Source: Halobacteriovorax sp. (GTDB lineage Bacteria > Bdellovibrionota > Bacteriovoracia > Bacteriovoracales > Bacteriovoracaceae). Taken from it: a stretch of DNA of 35,393 nt. Made by a program: the position numbers and the translations under genes. The notes beneath the pieces were generated by a model. It was given only the letters and a program-made list of their open reading frames with translations, was not told the origin of the DNA and searched no databases. The stretch is from contig JAIBDQ010000017.1 of assembly GCA_024686135.1 (NCBI GenBank), positions 1 to 35,393 of the forward strand, read 5' to 3'. Positions 10,393 to 29,101 of this stretch are shown one piece after another (the stretch's first letter is position 1; each line of letters begins with the position of its first letter).

Positions 10393-10842
10393 ATGGACGA
10401 AAAAAGAAACATTATAGTCGAAAACCCGTTTCACACGGCGCGTCTTAAACCCAAAAGAAAAGGGAAGATACCCCCGAAATTACTAGCGGTTGTGCACCAA
10501 TCTGGCTGTACTGGCTGCGAAGTATGTATTGCTGGTTGCCCCGTAGATAGTATTGAACTTGTCCCTGGACCAAACCCAACAAATCCACAGTTCCAACAAA
10601 CAGTAGAGATCGACCTTGCTAGATGTATTGGATGCCAAAACTGTAGCCAAGATTGCCCGTGGGAAACTATCATGATGTACGACAGTAATGATGCTTTTAC
10701 TGCCTGGGGATCTGAAACTCTTTTTAGTGAACTATATGTTGAAGAAAGTAAGATAGACGAAATTAAAGAAAAATTTGGAGCTGTTGATAAACCCGAAGAA
10801 CCTGCTCCAGACGATACACCTAACGAGCAAGACGCTTCTTAA
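10393..10842 (+). CDS. Dicluster 4Fe-4S ferredoxin-like protein
   Basis: This 149-residue protein has two full CxxCxxCxxxC cluster motifs: Cys39, 42, 45, 49 and Cys78, 81, 84, 88. They are separated by a 28-residue insert that includes GPNPTNPQ. It should carry two [4Fe-4S] clusters and move electrons in the cytoplasm. The 30-residue basic N-terminus and acidic, Pro-rich C-terminus are not recognised. No oxidoreductase subunit is adjacent, so its partner is unknown; the ETF system or Fe-S enzymes elsewhere are possible. The final 23 bases overlap lgt on the other strand. Confidence 0.8.
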   Translation: MDEKRNIIVENPFHTARLKPKRKGKIPPKLLAVVHQSGCTGCEVCIAGCPVDSIELVPGPNPTNPQFQQTVEIDLARCIGCQNCSQDCPWETIMMYDSNDAFTAWGSETLFSELYVEESKIDEIKEKFGAVDKPEEPAPDDTPNEQDAS

Positions 10843-11557
10843 TTAGAATAGTTCCTGAAACAAAAATAAGACTGATTGCAATCCACTGACTTGTAGAAAC
10901 CCCTTCTCCAGAAACTCCGCGAATAAGATCCCCTCTAAAAAGTTCCGTGACGTACCTAAGTCCAGAATAAAGAAAAATATAGAGTAAATAATCTTCAGCT
11001 TTTTCTTTATTTTTGAGAATTTTCCACAAAAAATAAAAACCTATTGTGAACAGTCCCATTGCTTCATAAAGTTGAACAGGATGCCTATCCATTCCATGCA
11101 AATGAATAGAGAAAGGAAGGTCGCATTGTGAACCGAAACAACAGCCCGCTAATAAGCAACCCACTCGTCCTACACCATGGGAGAACGCTATTGAAGGTAA
11201 TAAGAATTTAAAATTCTCTAATTTCCACTTTTTAAGCACCTTCGTGTAAAAAAGTACAAAAGCTGCTGCGAGCAGAAATCCTCCGTAAAAGACAAATCCC
11301 CCGCCAAGCCAAAACTCTGAAGCTCCCGCATACTCAGTAACCTTATCCTCTGCAGAGGAAAACAAAAATAAAACCTTAGAGCCAATCCAACTAGAAGCAA
11401 AGATTCCTATATAAAGGAGTAGGAATCCATCCCTTGAAATATTTCTTTTATTGAGAAGATAAAGAGAGAGCTGGTATCCCAGCCCCCAAGATAAACCCAT
11501 AAAAAAGGGATAAGAAAAAACCTGAGACCCGAATAATTCAAAAAGAATTGGTCTCAT
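10820..11557 (-). CDS. lgt: Prolipoprotein diacylglyceryl transferase
   Basis: This 245-residue integral membrane protein has about seven hydrophobic segments and the Lgt signature region HGVGRVGCLLAGCCFG near residues 127-142, followed by HPVQLYEA. Lgt moves diacylglycerol from phosphatidylglycerol to the lipobox Cys of prolipoproteins, the first step in lipoprotein maturation. The signature is the Cys-rich variant, not the GRIGNFING form of gamma-proteobacteria. At least three lipoprotein genes lie in this window. It sits 5 bases after the response-regulator gene, so it is probably the last gene of that operon. The C-terminal RGDLIRG block is also typical. Confidence 0.88.
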   Translation of the reverse strand: MRPILFELFGSQVFSYPFFMGLSWGLGYQLSLYLLNKRNISRDGFLLLYIGIFASSWIGSKVLFLFSSAEDKVTEYAGASEFWLGGGFVFYGGFLLAAAFVLFYTKVLKKWKLENFKFLLPSIAFSHGVGRVGCLLAGCCFGSQCDLPFSIHLHGMDRHPVQLYEAMGLFTIGFYFLWKILKNKEKAEDYLLYIFLYSGLRYVTELFRGDLIRGVSGEGVSTSQWIAISLIFVSGTILIKKRLAR

Positions 11558-11562
11558 ACGGC

Positions 11563-13056
11563 CTAGTAATACTCTTTCGGATTAATTTCGTATTTCTCTA
11601 TTTTTCTTAAAAGAGTTTTTTTAGGAATATTCGCCTTCAATGCCGTTTGGTTAATTTTGCCTTTATTTAATTGAAGGGCATGAATAATAAATTCTTTTTC
11701 AAACAACTCTTTAGCAACCTGAAAATCCATCTTGATTTCATTGTCTTCAGTTTTGGTAGCAAAAGTGAATTGATATCCCTCTGACTGCTCATTGGTTGGC
11801 CTTTCGGTTACAACTGAATCTTGAATATCTTTGAAGTCGATGATTCCCTGTAGAGACTCATCCTTCTCAGCTTTACCACCTACCGTTTTCCTAATCACAT
11901 CTGGCAATGAGGCGGGCTGGATGGTGTCAGTAGACTCAATGATAAAGGCATGCTCGACTACGTTTCTAAGCTCCCTAATATTCCCTGGCCACGTATACTC
12001 TTTAACAAGTGCAGTCGATTCTGGACTAAGTCCCTTTATCTCTAAGTTATGAACGCCATTAAAGTATTTAATATAGTAGTCAATCAGGTGAGGAATATCT
12101 GAAAGCCTTTCTCTTAGTGGCGGTAAATAAACAGGCAGAACATTTAATCTGTAAAATAAATCTTCTCTAAATGACCCATCTTTAATCATTTCTTCGAAAG
12201 GCTTATGAGAGGCTGCAATTATACGTACATCAACTTTCACATCTCTATTTGAACCTACAGGCGTAAAAGATCTCTCTTGCAACACCCTTAGTAGTTTAAC
12301 TTGCATGCCTGGTGAGATATCTCCAATTTCATCTAAAAATATCGTTCCGCCATCGGCATACTGAAACTTCCCAAGTTTTCTTTCGGATGCCCCTGTAAAG
12401 GCTCCTTTTTCATGTCCAAACAATTCCGACTCAATCAAGTTTTCAGGAACAGCTGCCAAGTTTATGGTAACAAATTTTTCATCTTTTCTTGGACCGTTGT
12501 AATGAATTGCTTTTGCGACGAGTTCTTTACCGGTACCACTTTCACCTCTAATTAATACTGGTGTATTAACCTGCGCCAGCTTACTAATAACATTAAAAAC
12601 TTTAATCATTACATCTGATTCACCAACAAACTTATCATCTGAATTTCCACCAAGTGATAATTGTGGTGCTGAGAAGATTGATGTTTCAACGAGTGATCTG
12701 GCTTTTAAAGCTCTTTTAATTAGTGCAACTAAATTATCAGAAGATATTGGTTTCTCTAAATAATTGTAAGCCCCTTCTTTCACTACCTTTACGGCGTCAC
12801 CAACATTTGAATAGGCCGTAAGAATTAAAACTATAATTGAAGGGTCATATTTTTTTATATGTCCAAGCGCTTCGATCCCATCCATTTCTGGCATGTTCAC
12901 ATCCATAACAACTAGGTCATACTTTTCAGCTGTAACTTTATTTAATGCTTCTTTTCCATTATCTGCTACATCTACAAAAAAGTGATGGTATTCTAGGGCT
13001 TGCCTTACGGAGTCTTGTAAAACCTTATCATCATCTACTACTAAAACTTTATGCAT
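11563..13056 (-). CDS. NtrC-family sigma-54-dependent response regulator
   Basis: Of 497 residues, 1-120 are a receiver domain with phospho-acceptor Asp52 (VVMDVNMPEMDG) and the acidic cluster VDDD at 7-10. Residues 140-375 form the AAA+ domain: Walker A GESGTGKE at 171-178, the sigma-54 contact loop GAFTGA at 218-223 and Walker B FLDEIGD at 240-246. The C-terminus carries a Fis-type helix-turn-helix (INQTALKANIPKKTLLRKIEKYEI). It should bind an upstream enhancer and open sigma-54 promoters once phosphorylated. The CHASE2 kinase gene ends 19 bases upstream and is the natural partner. A candidate target promoter is present at 27768-27783. Confidence 0.93.
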   Translation of the reverse strand: MHKVLVVDDDKVLQDSVRQALEYHHFFVDVADNGKEALNKVTAEKYDLVVMDVNMPEMDGIEALGHIKKYDPSIIVLILTAYSNVGDAVKVVKEGAYNYLEKPISSDNLVALIKRALKARSLVETSIFSAPQLSLGGNSDDKFVGESDVMIKVFNVISKLAQVNTPVLIRGESGTGKELVAKAIHYNGPRKDEKFVTINLAAVPENLIESELFGHEKGAFTGASERKLGKFQYADGGTIFLDEIGDISPGMQVKLLRVLQERSFTPVGSNRDVKVDVRIIAASHKPFEEMIKDGSFREDLFYRLNVLPVYLPPLRERLSDIPHLIDYYIKYFNGVHNLEIKGLSPESTALVKEYTWPGNIRELRNVVEHAFIIESTDTIQPASLPDVIRKTVGGKAEKDESLQGIIDFKDIQDSVVTERPTNEQSEGYQFTFATKTEDNEIKMDFQVAKELFEKEFIIHALQLNKGKINQTALKANIPKKTLLRKIEKYEINPKEYY

Positions 13057-13075
13057 AGAACTTCTCCATCCCAGT

Positions 13076-14959
13076 TCATTGGTTTCTCAATTTTACAGTA
13101 AATTTAGTCCCTTGTCCCAATGTTGATTCCGCGTCAATGATGCCTCCATGAAGCTCCACAAAATATTTAACTAAATATAAACCAAGACCCGTGCCTTTGA
13201 TGCTATGACTTGCATCATTTTTTACCCGATAGAACTTGTCAAAAATGTGCTCCAAATCATCTTTTGGAATTCCTACTCCATTATCTTGAATTTCTACATG
13301 AACCCACTTTTCATCATCCCAGCTTTTCACCTTAACAGCAGTGTTCTCACCAGAGTACTTAATGGCATTCTCAATTAAATTACTTAAAACTCTTTTCATT
13401 AAATTTTGATCAAACTCAATGGGATAAAGTGGAGACAACTCCATATCAACAACAACATTCTTATTCGTTGCTTCATATCTTAGGCCTTCGACCGTGCTCT
13501 CAATAACAGTATTAATATCTCTAGAGACTAAGGAGAGATCTAAATTCCTTGATTCTATTTTAGTCAAATCTAGGATCGAGGTGATAAACCTGTTTAGCTC
13601 CTTAGTCGAATCCATAATTGATTGTAGGTTTCTTTTATTTTGTTCTTCATCAGAGTTTTGATTCAGCATTATATCTGCTAAACCTGCAATTTTGGCCACG
13701 GGTGTTTTAAGGTCATGGCTCATTAAAGAAATAAAGTTTTGTTTAAGGTTTTCAACTTTTTTTAACAGCTTAGTTTCTTCTTGTATTGCATATCTTCTTT
13801 GATATTCACCAATAGCTCTGAAGGGAACCCAAATATAATAAACGACAAAGACGGTGAGTACGAGATGAGTGACGTAAAGCCAAAGACCCATAAAAGAGAA
13901 CATAAGATAGGAAATTAAGAAAATCCCCAACATCACTACTATCGTAATAAAAAGACCACTCGTTGGTTTTACTTTAGATATGGTGATTGAAAGAAAGATC
14001 GCGATAATTATAGCAAGCGTATAAGTTACGTAGCGTGGAATCTGGTAAACAGTTTTATTATTAATCAAAGCTTGCATGATCGAAGCATGAACCATTAATT
14101 TAGGAGCTTTGTACTCCTCTTTATTAAAAGGCGTTAAAACAAAATCCGGAGCGTTGGTCATATATGAAGGACCAATCAAGACTATTTTATTAGTAAAAAA
14201 TCCTTTAGGAAAATTTCCTACCCTAACCCTATGAAAGGGTATCTTTTTAATTCGGCCATTGGACTCCAGTGGCGAAGTGTAATACCTAAAGAGCGTAAAA
14301 GTTGCGTCAGCCTTTCTAACATAGTAAGCCCCAAGGATTGAGTTTATATTTAACGGCTCTAACTCCTTAGCCTGTCTAAATTTGTTTGCAGACCACAGGT
14401 GAATCGAGTCTTCCCCTCCAACATTTAAAATAGCTCGTCTACAAACGTCATCTTTAGCAAAGGTTAGACCATCTAAGTTTATTAATGAAGATGAGTGACC
14501 AAAATCCCTAAGATCAACCGGAGGTAACAACTCACCCCAGGCATCCCACTCTGTACCAAATCGAAACTCACCACCAAGGCCCTTGAACTTTTCTATTGAG
14601 TTGGTGAATTGTCCCAGATGTTTTCGATCTTGTGTTGTCACAGGTTCTAGAAAATTAACAAAGTAATTAACTAAAAATGGCCGATCTTTTATCAGCCTCT
14701 CAAGCATCTTACTATGTGAAGCGTACGTGTAAGGGTATGACTCGCCTAAAAAGCGATCGCTATCATCGTCTAGTGTTATTAAGACGATATTATCTTCATA
14801 GCTTGTCCCAAAGTCCCACTTAACCCTTAGGTCGTAAAAGATAGCCTCTTGAGCTGAAAAGGAATATTGAAAAAGAATGACGACAAAAATAACCGTGAAG
14901 AATAACGGGTAATATTTTGAAATATCAATTGTCCGTTTCTTCTTAGGTTCTGTTTTCAA
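13076..14959 (-). CDS. CHASE2-domain sensor histidine kinase
   Basis: This 627-residue protein has one membrane helix near residues 17-35, then an extracytoplasmic CHASE2 sensor domain to about 300, then three close membrane helices (about 308-380). The cytoplasmic part has a HisKA domain with HDLKTP, phospho-acceptor His415, and an HATPase_c domain with the N-box NLIENAIKY, DNGVGIP and GTGLGL. This is the standard CHASE2 kinase layout. The signal is unknown. The response-regulator gene follows after 19 bases, and an unrecognised membrane protein gene precedes it by 12 bases. The kinase would control the sigma-54 activator. Confidence 0.92.
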   Translation of the reverse strand: MKTEPKKKRTIDISKYYPLFFTVIFVVILFQYSFSAQEAIFYDLRVKWDFGTSYEDNIVLITLDDDSDRFLGESYPYTYASHSKMLERLIKDRPFLVNYFVNFLEPVTTQDRKHLGQFTNSIEKFKGLGGEFRFGTEWDAWGELLPPVDLRDFGHSSSLINLDGLTFAKDDVCRRAILNVGGEDSIHLWSANKFRQAKELEPLNINSILGAYYVRKADATFTLFRYYTSPLESNGRIKKIPFHRVRVGNFPKGFFTNKIVLIGPSYMTNAPDFVLTPFNKEEYKAPKLMVHASIMQALINNKTVYQIPRYVTYTLAIIIAIFLSITISKVKPTSGLFITIVVMLGIFLISYLMFSFMGLWLYVTHLVLTVFVVYYIWVPFRAIGEYQRRYAIQEETKLLKKVENLKQNFISLMSHDLKTPVAKIAGLADIMLNQNSDEEQNKRNLQSIMDSTKELNRFITSILDLTKIESRNLDLSLVSRDINTVIESTVEGLRYEATNKNVVVDMELSPLYPIEFDQNLMKRVLSNLIENAIKYSGENTAVKVKSWDDEKWVHVEIQDNGVGIPKDDLEHIFDKFYRVKNDASHSIKGTGLGLYLVKYFVELHGGIIDAESTLGQGTKFTVKLRNQ

Positions 14960-14971
14960 TTGCTATACACC

Positions 14972-15673
14972 TTAAGCTCTTTCTTTATTAAATATAACAC
15001 TAACCAAATCAGTTTCCTGAATTTTATAAATTCCCAATATTCTAACCAGTTCACAAGTAAAGGTGTCTAAGGCAGGGATGTCTGAATTGTAGTAAGAATG
15101 TTCATGCTGATCAATTTTGGTTTTAACAACAGACTCTATAAGTAATCTAAATGGAGTCCCCCAGATACCTACTAACAAACTAAAGAACCAGGTCCTTCCT
15201 AAAGACTTTTCAATTATCACAAGAGGGAGATTATAAATTGAATACAGATACATTAATCTCGAATTCTTTTTAGCCGTCTTATCTTTAAACATACTTATAA
15301 CGTGACGAAATGCTTCATCTACATGGTTTGTATCTTTAAAGCTTTTATCGATTATTACGAATTTCTTACCGCGCCATTCAAAACAAATAACGTTCTTTAA
15401 CCCAACCCTTGAATAGCACAGTGTTAATCCATGTTGATTATGTCCATATGACAAGTTGGATAGTCTCTCCAAAAGCTTGTCACCCCTTTTGGCCGGCACT
15501 GCTAACAAAAAAAGCAAAATCCATTTATCTATAAATGAGTATATTAATAGTAAGTAAACAAGAGCTATTGTAATACCGACCAATTCTCCCTTTACCGGGA
15601 AAATTAGAAACGAAATTGAGGCCACGGCATATAACCAAAGGCCAAATAATATCAAGAGCTTTACGCTTTGCAC
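14972..15673 (-). CDS. Membrane protein of unknown function, possibly a degenerate M48-like fold
   Basis: This 233-residue protein starts at a GTG preceded by AAAGGA. Two membrane helices fill residues 5-58. The soluble part has a weak resemblance to HtpX-type M48 peptidases: KKFVIIDKSFKD..HVDEAFRHVISMF lies where the strand and HExxH helix would be, but there is no HExxH. A third hydrophobic segment is near residues 160-180. It is the first gene of the kinase/regulator operon, so it may feed information to the kinase. The M48 link is only a pattern impression; treat it as unknown. Confidence 0.6.
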   Translation of the reverse strand: MQSVKLLILFGLWLYAVASISFLIFPVKGELVGITIALVYLLLIYSFIDKWILLFLLAVPAKRGDKLLERLSNLSYGHNQHGLTLCYSRVGLKNVICFEWRGKKFVIIDKSFKDTNHVDEAFRHVISMFKDKTAKKNSRLMYLYSIYNLPLVIIEKSLGRTWFFSLLVGIWGTPFRLLIESVVKTKIDQHEHSYYNSDIPALDTFTCELVRILGIYKIQETDLVSVIFNKERA

Positions 15674-25593: not shown

Positions 25594-26553
25594 ATGGCTA
25601 AAATATTAGTATTTACAGAAACAAATAAAGAAAATGTTAAATCAGTTAGTTTAGAAATTGTTGGAAAACTAAATGGACATGATGTCGACGTTGCCTCGGT
25701 TGGTGACATCGGTGCTGAAGGTGTTGCTGAGCTCGCAAAGCATGGGGCTGCAAACATTCATTGCCTTAAGGGAGATAATTTAGATGAGTATACTCCTGAA
25801 GGTTTTGCGAACGCCTTAAAAGAATTTATTTCTTCTAATTCATATGATTACGTATTTGCAGGGTCTACTCCTACAGGAAAAGATCTTCTTCCAAGACTAG
25901 CTGGAATGTTTGATGCTGGAATGGCGAGTGAAGTTACTAACTTTCAGTTTGACGGTGACGAATTTCAAGGCACAAGACCAATGTTCGCGGGTAAGTGCTT
26001 ATGTAAAGTAAGGATCCAAGGTCCTAAGCCCCACTTTGTTAGCGTTAGACCAAATGCACTTGGGTTGAACGAATCACCTACTGCAGGCGCTGGAAATAAA
26101 GCTGATGTGACTGCTTCGGCAGGCGAAATTAGAGCAGCCATTAAGGAGATTATTAAAGGTGCCTCAGAAAAAGTTGATTTATCTGAAGCCAATATTATTG
26201 TCTCAGGTGGTAGGGCCATGAAAAATGCTGAAAATTTCAAAATTTTAGATGAGCTTGCGGAAGTCATTGGTGCAACAGTTGGTGCATCAAGAGCTGCTGT
26301 AGATTCGGGCTATGCTCCTCACTCTATGCAGGTAGGACAAACTGGCAAAACCGTTGCCCCATCCCTTTATATAGCTTGTGGAATATCTGGAGCGATTCAA
26401 CATCTTGCAGGTATGAGAACTTCTAAGGTTATTGTAGCAATCAATACTGACCCAGATGCTCCTATTTTTACGAAAGCTGATTATGGAATTGTTGGTGACT
26501 TATTTCAAATCGTCCCAATTTTAAAAGAAGAATTAAAACAACTATTAGGTTAA
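25594..26553 (+). CDS. etfA: Electron transfer flavoprotein alpha subunit
   Basis: This 319-residue protein has the FAD-binding C-terminal domain of EtfA: GASRAAVDSGY, QVGQTGKTVAPSLYIACGISGAIQHLAGM and the ending PIFTKADYGIVGDLFQIVP. It binds the FAD that accepts electrons from the dehydrogenase and delivers them to ETF-quinone oxidoreductase, which is not in this window. AAAGGA precedes the ATG. A strong hairpin follows its stop. Confidence 0.95.
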   Translation: MAKILVFTETNKENVKSVSLEIVGKLNGHDVDVASVGDIGAEGVAELAKHGAANIHCLKGDNLDEYTPEGFANALKEFISSNSYDYVFAGSTPTGKDLLPRLAGMFDAGMASEVTNFQFDGDEFQGTRPMFAGKCLCKVRIQGPKPHFVSVRPNALGLNESPTAGAGNKADVTASAGEIRAAIKEIIKGASEKVDLSEANIIVSGGRAMKNAENFKILDELAEVIGATVGASRAAVDSGYAPHSMQVGQTGKTVAPSLYIACGISGAIQHLAGMRTSKVIVAINTDPDAPIFTKADYGIVGDLFQIVPILKEELKQLLG

Positions 26554-26560
26554 CAAACAG

Positions 26561-26590
26561 GTTCCCGGCCTAGGAGGCTGGGAACTATTT
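26561..26590. terminator. Terminator hairpin between etfA and the opposing exported-protein gene
   Basis: Arms 26561-26571 (GTTCCCGGCCT) and 26575-26585 (AGGCTGGGAAC) form an 11-bp stem with one G-T pair and a three-base loop. TATTTT follows on the plus strand. The U tract is short, so strength is uncertain. The end of the stem touches the stop codon of the minus-strand gene, so it may serve both. Confidence 0.7.
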
Positions 26591-27745
26591 TACACTTGCT
26601 GGCTTTCTTTCAGAAGATTTTCCAAAAGCAAATCCATACTGAGCAACATATTCTAATTTAGTTTCATTACTTTCAAATATTACAACGTCCTCTTCTTGGT
26701 TTTCTTCAGCCGGTACTCTTTCAACTTCCTCTTCCTTTTCTTGAGCCTTAATTCTTAGTGTAGCTTCACCGCTTCTCGCTTCTTGTAATTTCTCTTCATA
26801 ATTTGCATACTTCTCTTGAGCTTGATCATATTTTTCTTGAGAAACGAATGTTAAGATTGCACCCTGAAGTGGGCCAGTTGCAAACCTTACTTTATAGCTA
26901 TGCTCACCATTATTTGTAATTATTCCAGTCGCCTTATCTCCACCAATTTCTGCTTCAAACTGACCACCGTCCTTGATTTCTGCGAATGAAAAGTCCAAGT
27001 TAACTTCTTTTGCTGATCCAGTGTTTAAAGAAGCATTAAAATCTTGAATGCTTCCGTCAAAAACACTTAAATTACCATTAACCTGAGTTATGTTTAAAAT
27101 ATTTCTAGACTGTAACGGGTTCAAAGCACTTTCTAAAAAGAGATCCATATCATTCATTCTAATTCCCTTTTTAGCGGGCTTCACTTCATCTTTTTGAGTT
27201 GGCTGTGTAAGAACTGGTTTATTATTCGCCAACTTATTAAACTTAGGTTTTGGAATTATCTTTTTCGCTTCAAGAATTTCGTAACCACCGTTGATGATTT
27301 TAAATAAAGCGATTGTATTTCGCTTTGTAAGAAGTGATATCTTAAAAGTTTGATTTAGGTCTTTATCAAGAACAACAGTACTCGTTGCTACTAATTCCAT
27401 ATTTACTATAATGATAGATTTTTTATCTTCTTCATTTTTAAAAGAGTCATATATCGGATTACCTTTATTATCGATAACTCTAGTTACTTCCCATCTTCCA
27501 TTTATTTTCTCTTTATTCTTTTTTGTAACTCCTAAATAAGTTACAGCTGGGGAATTAAAATCATGGGCCCTAGAAGCTACATTTCTATTGGTTTCTTCTG
27601 GTTGAAAAGAGACAACATCTAACTTCTCTTCATACATAAATGAATTAGACTTAAGTTTTAGATCAGCATAGGTGCCGGCGATAACCGCAGTAGTTATTGC
27701 TGCTGAAAATAAGTAGGTCTTCATTGTAGATAGTGTCGTTTTCAT
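26585..27745 (-). CDS. Exported protein of unknown function under a sigma-54 promoter
   Basis: I do not recognise this 386-residue protein. An N-terminal hydrophobic segment (about residues 10-27, ending AGTYA) is a signal peptide or membrane anchor. The middle has beta-rich stretches (NGRWEVTRVIDNKGNP, GQFEAEIGGDKATG). Residues 305-350 form a Glu/Lys/Ala-rich coiled coil. The C-terminus is charged and then ends with QYGFAFGKSSERKPASVK. AGGAG lies 6 bases before the ATG. Upstream is an exact -24/-12 sigma-54 promoter with palindromes further away, so expression is probably switched by an activator such as the NtrC-type protein at 11563. Convergent with etfA. Confidence 0.7.
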   Translation of the reverse strand: MKTTLSTMKTYLFSAAITTAVIAGTYADLKLKSNSFMYEEKLDVVSFQPEETNRNVASRAHDFNSPAVTYLGVTKKNKEKINGRWEVTRVIDNKGNPIYDSFKNEEDKKSIIIVNMELVATSTVVLDKDLNQTFKISLLTKRNTIALFKIINGGYEILEAKKIIPKPKFNKLANNKPVLTQPTQKDEVKPAKKGIRMNDMDLFLESALNPLQSRNILNITQVNGNLSVFDGSIQDFNASLNTGSAKEVNLDFSFAEIKDGGQFEAEIGGDKATGIITNNGEHSYKVRFATGPLQGAILTFVSQEKYDQAQEKYANYEEKLQEARSGEATLRIKAQEKEEEVERVPAEENQEEDVVIFESNETKLEYVAQYGFAFGKSSERKPASVK

Positions 27746-27767
27746 TTTTTTCTCCTACAGTACTTAC

Positions 27768-27783
27768 TGCAACTGCCGTGCCA
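27768..27783 (-). promoter_or_regulatory. Sigma-54 (-24/-12) promoter
   Basis: The minus strand reads TGGCACGGCAGTTGCA, matching the consensus TGGCAC(G)N4TTGCW at every conserved base; GG and GC are 10 bases apart, the strict sigma-54 spacing. The predicted start is about 12 bases downstream near 27757, just before the AGGAG of the gene starting at 27745. Confidence 0.88.
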
Positions 27784-27869
27784 CACCGCAGCACAAGGTA
27801 CGCGAGAAATCCTGTCACTCAACAACCTTAAGTAGTTGAAAATACTGGAAAAATTGAAAAGGAAACTTG

Positions 27870-27905
27870 TTTTTAGACGGCCCCACTGTCTAAAAATTAG
27901 ACAGT
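27870..27905. promoter_or_regulatory. Nested palindromes, candidate enhancer (upstream activating) sites
   Basis: Two overlapping inverted repeats share a centre arm. TTTTTAGAC (27870-27878) pairs with GTCTAAAAA (27888-27896) across 9 bases, and ACTGTCTAA (27885-27893) pairs with TTAGACAGT (27897-27905) across AAA. TTAGAC thus occurs three times. The block is 112-148 bases upstream of the predicted sigma-54 start, the usual place for enhancer-binding protein sites. Confidence 0.5.
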
Positions 27906-27919
27906 AGTGAAAAATATAC

Positions 27920-28453
27920 TTAAGAAATTACCTTCAAAGCTCCCTTCTTGCGAAGGGAAACAAGACTATTTGTTACCTCAAAATCATATAAAAATGAGTT
28001 TTCGTAGATATCCTGGATTTTACCAAAGTCACTTATCAGGCAAAGAATATCAAATTCTTTTGGGTCTATCTCTGCACCTCTACAAACAAAGTCAGAGTTA
28101 ATAACAACTCGCTTGTTTCCAGGGGGTTTTAGTTTTTTGTTTTTCTCCGTTTGCTCTAAAAGATACCTAAACTCACTTTCTAAATTTGAGAGCTCAAGCT
28201 CAAATTGAATAAGTTCCAGACCAATAACCTCAGGCTCTACAACATACTCCAGGCTAGAGTCTTCTGAAAACTCCTGCATCAGCAAGTTAAGAAGCGACTT
28301 CCTACCTGTTTCTTTTTTAAAACTACAACCAACGACTGTTCCTGCACATAGGAGAATATTTCCCAGATGCTGTGATAAAGATTTATCTTGAACAACGATT
28401 TTTCCATCAAAACCAATAGCTGACTGTTCTCGTAGGATTTTTATAAGTGCCAT
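27920..28453 (-). CDS. Hypothetical protein, 177 residues
   Basis: I do not recognise this protein with confidence. It has no signal peptide. The N-terminus (AIGFDGKIVVQDKSLSQHLGNILLCAGTVVGCSF) recalls DUF4388-type regions and the end FEVTNSLVSLRKKGALKV looks like a winged-helix tail, but both are weak. A coiled segment lies at about 75-105. It is divergent from the HAMP-like membrane gene across 90 bases, in which I find no clear promoter. The sigma-54 enhancer block begins 15 bases beyond its stop. Confidence 0.55.
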   Translation of the reverse strand: MALIKILREQSAIGFDGKIVVQDKSLSQHLGNILLCAGTVVGCSFKKETGRKSLLNLLMQEFSEDSSLEYVVEPEVIGLELIQFELELSNLESEFRYLLEQTEKNKKLKPPGNKRVVINSDFVCRGAEIDPKEFDILCLISDFGKIQDIYENSFLYDFEVTNSLVSLRKKGALKVIS

Positions 28454-28543
28454 AATTAACCAAATTTGCCTTTTTTATTTAAGTAGATACAAACTTAAAA
28501 CAATATTATCATTAATAGAGTTTATTTAAAATTCGGAAATCAA

Positions 28544-29101
28544 GTGGCATATAAAAGATCAATATTATTAATAAACCCTAAGTTTCAGCTTAAGATAAGT
28601 GCTTTAGTTTGCTTTTTAGCTATCGCCTCAAGCCTCATTTATCCTTGGACGATATCGGACCTGCTATCAAGCTTCTCAGCCTTTATCCAGGCCAATCATC
28701 CAGAAGCAGCCAAAACCATACTTAAAAAAGAAGAAAACCTAATGTCGGTTCTTCTACTTTGGCAAATAGGATCTAATGGTTTTATTTTTCTATATTTTAT
28801 TTATGTAACACATAAAATAGCAGGGCCGATGCATAAACTACAGCTCTACCTTGAAAATATAAAAAATGGTAATCCCATTTCGAAACTTTATTTTAGAAAT
28901 GGTGACTCGTTTCAGGAAGTAGCAGACTCTATCAATGATGCTTTTGACACTCTGGAAGAACAAAGAAAGCAAGATTTTATGTACCTATCTGAAGTTAATT
29001 CTTATTTAAAAAATCTGGAAGTTGTTCTTCCTGAAGATAAAAAAGTTGTCCTGCAAGAAATTACAAACAAACTTAACGATATCCAAAAGAGATTCGATTA
29101 A
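28544..29101 (+). CDS. Membrane protein with HAMP-like region
   Basis: This 185-residue protein starts at a GTG with only a weak GGAA upstream. It has two membrane helices (about 17-35 and 68-88) flanking a short loop outside the cytoplasm. The following HKIAGPMHKLQLYLENIKNGN...RNGDSFQEVADSINDAFDTLEEQ is HAMP-like in shape: a Pro-containing first helix, a connector and a second helix. No kinase or cyclase domain follows, so it may be a free-standing relay or scaffold. Its stop directly abuts the ATG of the lytic transglycosylase gene, suggesting a joint function. Confidence 0.7.
   Translation: MAYKRSILLINPKFQLKISALVCFLAIASSLIYPWTISDLLSSFSAFIQANHPEAAKTILKKEENLMSVLLLWQIGSNGFIFLYFIYVTHKIAGPMHKLQLYLENIKNGNPISKLYFRNGDSFQEVADSINDAFDTLEEQRKQDFMYLSEVNSYLKNLEVVLPEDKKVVLQEITNKLNDIQKRFD

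Follow-up and report, generated by a model that had tools for sequence, protein, structure and literature searches.

The window, by which is meant the whole 35,393-nt stretch of DNA that was analysed, carries on its minus strand a gene for an exported protein of 386 residues, the target of the control elements that lie in front of it. Also on the minus strand are the genes of a two-component system that may act on those elements. The features are:

27920-28453, minus strand: upstream neighbour gene encoding a conserved protein of 177 aa, with no Pfam match
27887-27903, minus strand: TGTCTAATTTTTAGACA, a perfect palindrome of 17 bases and enhancer type, the presumed activator-binding site (the sequence to which the activator would bind is also written TGTCTAANNNTTAGACA)
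27871-27878, minus strand: GTCTAAAA, a possible second activator half-site just downstream of the palindrome, as read from the sequence
27829-27841, minus strand: TTTCAACTACTTA, an IHF-like site between the palindrome and the promoter, matching 8 of the 9 positions of the consensus WATCAANNNNTTR
27768-27783, minus strand: TGGCACGGCAGTTGCA, a sigma-54 -24/-12 promoter element of perfect consensus, with GG-N10-GC spacing
27757, minus strand: predicted start of transcription, 12 bases beyond the GC of the -12 box, as the usual sigma-54 geometry would place it
27752-27756, minus strand: Shine-Dalgarno sequence AGGAG, six bases before the ATG, likewise read from the sequence
26585-27745, minus strand: open reading frame of the target protein (386 aa), with its ATG at 27745
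26561-26585, no strand assigned: GC-rich hairpin, a likely shared terminator, between the convergent stops of the target gene and etfA
13076-14959, minus strand: CHASE2 sensor histidine kinase, adjoining the activator gene and its presumed partner
11563-13056, minus strand: NtrC-type response regulator (receiver, AAA+ domain with GAFTGA, Fis-type helix-turn-helix), the best candidate for the activator
10820-11557, minus strand: prolipoprotein diacylglyceryl transferase (Lgt), its gene immediately following that of the activator

The hairpin at the end of the target gene (-18.1 kcal/mol, z -2.5) is terminator-like on the plus strand. Since the target gene ends at this structure, which it has in common with the convergent etfA, it is probably transcribed alone and looks monocistronic. 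At homologous loci in other genera, such as L020, L009, L012, L023 and L028, a gene of about 65 codons for a ribbon-helix-helix-like protein (...LVVIALKRFRxSHxDYEG...), absent from the window's genus, lies between the gene for the 177-aa neighbour and the target gene; further upstream at homologue loci of other genera there is an Mrp/ApbC-like gene.

The target protein and its promoter

The target protein begins with an N-terminal signal or anchor, followed by two domains (domain 1, residues ~75-162; domain 2, ~196-302) and a charged coiled-coil tail. Alignment of 38 family members picks out a near-invariant GFxF motif close to the C-terminus (371-374), preceded by a charged tail of variable sequence. 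Domain 1 is missing in many genera, and domain 2 with GFxF makes up the conserved core; GFxF may reasonably be guessed to be a docking motif carried by a flexible tail. The preliminary description had pictured a protein with a signal peptide and a coiled coil but no recognised family, and that is how it stands after sequence searches of Pfam, NCBIfam and the PDB with the 38 members and their profile, which yielded no consistent match. A lipocalin-like domain 1 was considered on the strength of its strand pattern, an ING-x-W motif and weak DUF5004 matches in two members, but a loose scan for domains lent the idea no support. Structure prediction from two sequences was uninformative (pLDDT 31).

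The genus belongs to the class Bacteriovoracia (NCBI taxonomy). Single-sequence searches find the target family in 63 of 95 genomes and a profile finds it in 113 of the 129 genomes of the class; outside the class, the libraries searched have no record of it. Far from being a niche accessory, then, the target protein belongs to a family that is nearly universal in its class, is preserved together with its promoter, and is among the most widespread of the class's proteins of unknown function; it is also one of many exported proteins that are similarly controlled.

The promoter element TGGCACGGCAGTTGCA fits the extended consensus TGGCACG-N4-TTGCW as well as the GG-N10-GC core, and no other exact match occurs in the entire window. 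Matches with up to two mismatches number 8 where 10.3 are expected, which is chance level, so that similarity to the consensus is in itself weak evidence; the telling evidence comes from conservation. All 30 of the best homologue loci have a sigma-54 site before the start of the gene (12.3-22.0 bits), usually of the form TGGCA[CT]G....TTGC[AT] and a short distance before the ATG, and on both strands of these loci merely a handful of other positions score equally high. Such a site also precedes 18 of 20 remote homologues (one of the two exceptions has a site that scores 10.2, the other has none within 300 nt), making 48 of 50 in total, down to approximately 20% protein identity. Exact TGGCAYRNNNNTTGCW sites number 10 in this assembly (G000), 15 in G053, which is of the same genus, and 8 in G007; the reversed control pattern occurs 2, 2 and 1 times, respectively. 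A chance resemblance, with the gene transcribed instead from a sigma-70 promoter, would suit the behaviour of the looser matches, but it is rejected as extremely improbable, because the site is kept among the homologues though its flanking sequence diverges, because exact sites are rare genome-wide, and because no sigma-70-like site is correctly placed within 26400-28600.

Thus, what the preliminary description had proposed, an exact sigma-54 promoter with strict GG-N10-GC spacing before AGGAG and ATG, is confirmed as TGGCACGGCAGTTGCA at 27783-27768, and the conservation upstream of orthologues that it had suggested looking for is there. That the site serves as a sigma-54 promoter for an exported protein without a recognised family is strongly supported. 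The leader that is predicted from a start at 27757 is very short (~12 nt), which counts against this reading. A further point against it is that the gene for sigma-54 itself, rpoN, was not found in this assembly (3.29 Mb, 82% complete); the other two genomes of the genus do have rpoN, as do 51 of 59 genomes of the family.

Palindrome, IHF-like site and a regulon of exported proteins

The palindrome, of the type TGTC-N9-GACA with fixed TAA/TTA, sits 103 nt upstream of the -24 box, and 105 nt upstream in both other members of the genus. Of the regions upstream of 48 homologues, 42 agree with the palindrome at 10 or more of its 14 positions, where shuffled sequence would lead one to expect about 3. 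A relaxed IHF consensus is fully matched in 26 of the 48 (0.6 expected). In 19 of these 26 the IHF-like site starts 58-61 nt before the -24 box and otherwise 48-49 or 37 nt before it; these clusters, approximately one helical turn apart, would fit a DNA-bending protein. Helical phasing of the distance from palindrome to promoter is suggestive but not significant (p 0.08).

The palindrome is not confined to the target locus. With up to one mismatch allowed, there are about 15 copies in each of the three genus genomes. A sigma-54 site lies 20-130 nt away from 24 of the 38 intergenic copies, a far higher rate than in control windows (6 of 651; Fisher 4e-29), and the association persists when the target locus is left out (21/35, 1e-25); none of the 9 palindromes inside open reading frames has a sigma-54 site nearby. 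In the 129 genomes of the class, strict palindromes number 328, compared with 19 for the reversed control pattern. They are missing in 21 of these genomes (for example, G019, G025 and G028), most of which have the window's activator.

The genes that are served by palindrome and sigma-54 site have a property in common: all 15 families have an export-type N-terminus, as do the products of the 7 remaining genes of this genome that have exact sigma-54 sites. The pooled count, 22/22 against 38% of background open reading frames, gives a p of 5e-10 that is indicative only, because the export call is made by a simple rule of N-terminal hydrophobicity, which is crude, and the background is small. Among the products are lipoproteins, proteins that are phospholipase-D-like, beta-helical or rich in glycine and asparagine (one of each), and small secreted proteins of 64-65 residues that come in pairs; few of the served genes have a Pfam family. 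The association of palindromes with sigma-54 sites and the uniformly exported products (15/15) together make the promoter at 27768-27783 one target of a sigma-54 regulon. On these comparative grounds the palindrome is common to a predicted regulon of a dozen or so genes, whose products are exported proteins and lipoproteins, and palindrome and promoter recur across the Bacteriovoracia. It is at the level of sequence that the elements, their conservation and the sharing of a regulon are established.

Several genes merit description in their own right. The small secreted proteins (61-65 aa) have a mature start AGYGEDMKGEC and a lysine-rich end; their genes come in pairs, and every one has a palindrome and a sigma-54 site to itself (L086:1629-1823 and L087:1644-1835 on contig C125 of this assembly; also L068 and L103). 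Two copies are found within ~2 kb of DNA. On contig C42, L081:252-1388 encodes a palindrome-linked exported protein in which a long Gly/Asn/Asp repeat is followed by an outer-membrane-beta-barrel-like region. A response-regulator activator with GSFSGA replacing GAFTGA, encoded in G053 (C17:289809; L064/L126) and not seen in the G000 assembly, has its own exact sigma-54 site.

The palindrome might instead be bound by an unrelated regulator that does not work with sigma-54, such as a repressor of genes for exported proteins, its proximity to sigma-54 sites being coincidental. The 14 of 38 intergenic palindromes that have no clear sigma-54 site nearby speak for such a regulator, and count against the reading preferred here, but it is an unlikely one: palindromes are strongly associated with sigma-54 sites at 38-105 nt, they are always upstream of the site in the direction of reading, and at the target locus the palindrome lies behind the IHF-like site, which is the textbook arrangement for a sigma-54 activator.

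Candidate activators

The GAFTGA-containing sigma-54 activator and the CHASE2 kinase that had been described as encoded in the window are indeed there, at 11563-13056 and 13076-14959. They form part of a same-strand run with short gaps (10820-15673) that comprises genes for a 233-aa protein of no assigned function, the kinase, the activator and Lgt, and that links the sensor system to lipoprotein anchoring. Lgt anchors lipoproteins, and the placement of its gene directly after that of the activator, on the same strand, is in keeping with a role of the system in the cell envelope.

The window activator is found in 121 of 129 genomes of the class and is 68-83% identical in most of those outside the window's own. 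Among 20 genomes that span many genera, the core of its helix-turn-helix, INQTAL[KN]ANIPKKTLLRKIEKY, hardly varies, and the recognition helix does not vary at all. In every one of the 66 genomes that have activator and target gene on one contig, the two lie within 30 kb of each other, a linkage that may reflect an old conserved gene block which also holds etfAB and neighbouring genes. Because the activator is present in nearly all genomes, only one, G026 (99% complete, rpoN present), is informative for co-occurrence. It has no window activator, no target family and no strict palindrome, yet it keeps the activators of groups C and D, and for that reason the window activator is favoured. Co-occurrence does not separate it from the activator of group A, which is also missing in G026.

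Whether the window activator, with its CHASE2 kinase, would be what drives transcription from this palindrome and promoter is put at about an even chance. The link is plausible, with indirect support from conserved linkage, from the helix-turn-helix and from the joint absence in G026. There is a considerable chance, short of even, that another NtrC-type activator, for example that of group A (517 aa, contig C210 of this assembly), drives the promoter and that the window activator has other targets. The genus has several conserved GAFTGA activators, G026 has no group A activator either, and neither palindrome nor sigma-54 site precedes the window activator's own operon. Set against these points are the linkage of the window activator to the target in 66/66 same-contig genomes, its near universality, the fitness of a class-wide and almost invariant helix-turn-helix for a class-wide site, and the presence of groups C and D in a genome that has neither palindrome nor target.

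Proposed mechanism and comparison with known systems

The reading that we prefer, and hold to be very probable, is that a functional sigma-54 promoter, with an enhancer and an IHF-like site upstream, drives expression of a single exported or membrane-anchored protein of a core family as part of a regulon. A phosphorylated NtrC-type activator would bind the palindrome as a dimer, IHF would bend the DNA between palindrome and promoter, and ATP-driven remodelling by the activator would open the sigma-54 polymerase complex, with all-or-none expression in response to the kinase signal as the expected outcome. Binding by the activator, transcription and the identity of the bending protein as IHF are what we infer from the arrangement of the sites.

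A more far-reaching proposal, which we consider rather improbable, is that one ancient two-component system, the CHASE2 kinase with the window activator, turns on a large set of secreted and cell-surface proteins throughout the class, the target being the most conserved of them. If true, this system could be a switch for prey contact or life phase in a mostly predatory class. How the Bacteriovoracia control their cell-surface and external proteins is little known, and the regulon offers a concrete and testable case: a promoter, an enhancer, a probable bend site, candidates for activator and sensor, and a set of targets that are all of export type and for the most part without known function.

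One known system with a similar binding site is the GlrR/QseF regulon (E. coli glmY and rpoE), with sites of the TGTC...GACA type and envelope-related targets, as here (PMC8745638, PMC6075780). The published spacing is TGTCN10GACA (PMC8745638), whereas here it is N9, with fixed TAA/TTA. The window activator scores 350.9 bits against the GlrR model NF011695 (cut-off 763), over residues 3-382 only, the helix-turn-helix not being covered. Identity with GlrR/QseF is rejected on both counts, the score below the cut-off and the different spacing. The sigma-54 regulome of Desulfovibrio vulgaris, in which promoters and activator sites were also reconstructed comparatively, likewise has exterior-related targets, the cell exterior being its largest group (PMC4641369); flagella, EPS and metabolism dominate there, and the text has no TGTC/GACA motif. 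The exterior theme agrees with the view of sigma-54 as a controller of the bacterial exterior (Francke et al. 2011, PMC3162934; Bdellovibrio is not mentioned in its text), which puts targets at the cell surface and stresses the synthesis and transport of surface molecules, whereas the targets described here are themselves exported proteins, mostly without a known family.

The literature searched on sigma-54 in Bdellovibrio and Halobacteriovorax contains no description of this regulon. Like sigma-54 (RpoN) promoters that work with NtrC-type activators and IHF, the locus has a -24/-12 element, a palindrome, an IHF-like site between them and GAFTGA activators encoded in the genome. No mechanistic difference from such promoters is seen, and it is the enhancer sequence and the set of targets that are specific to the class: the type of mechanism is a familiar one, while the regulon and the target protein family are apparently new.
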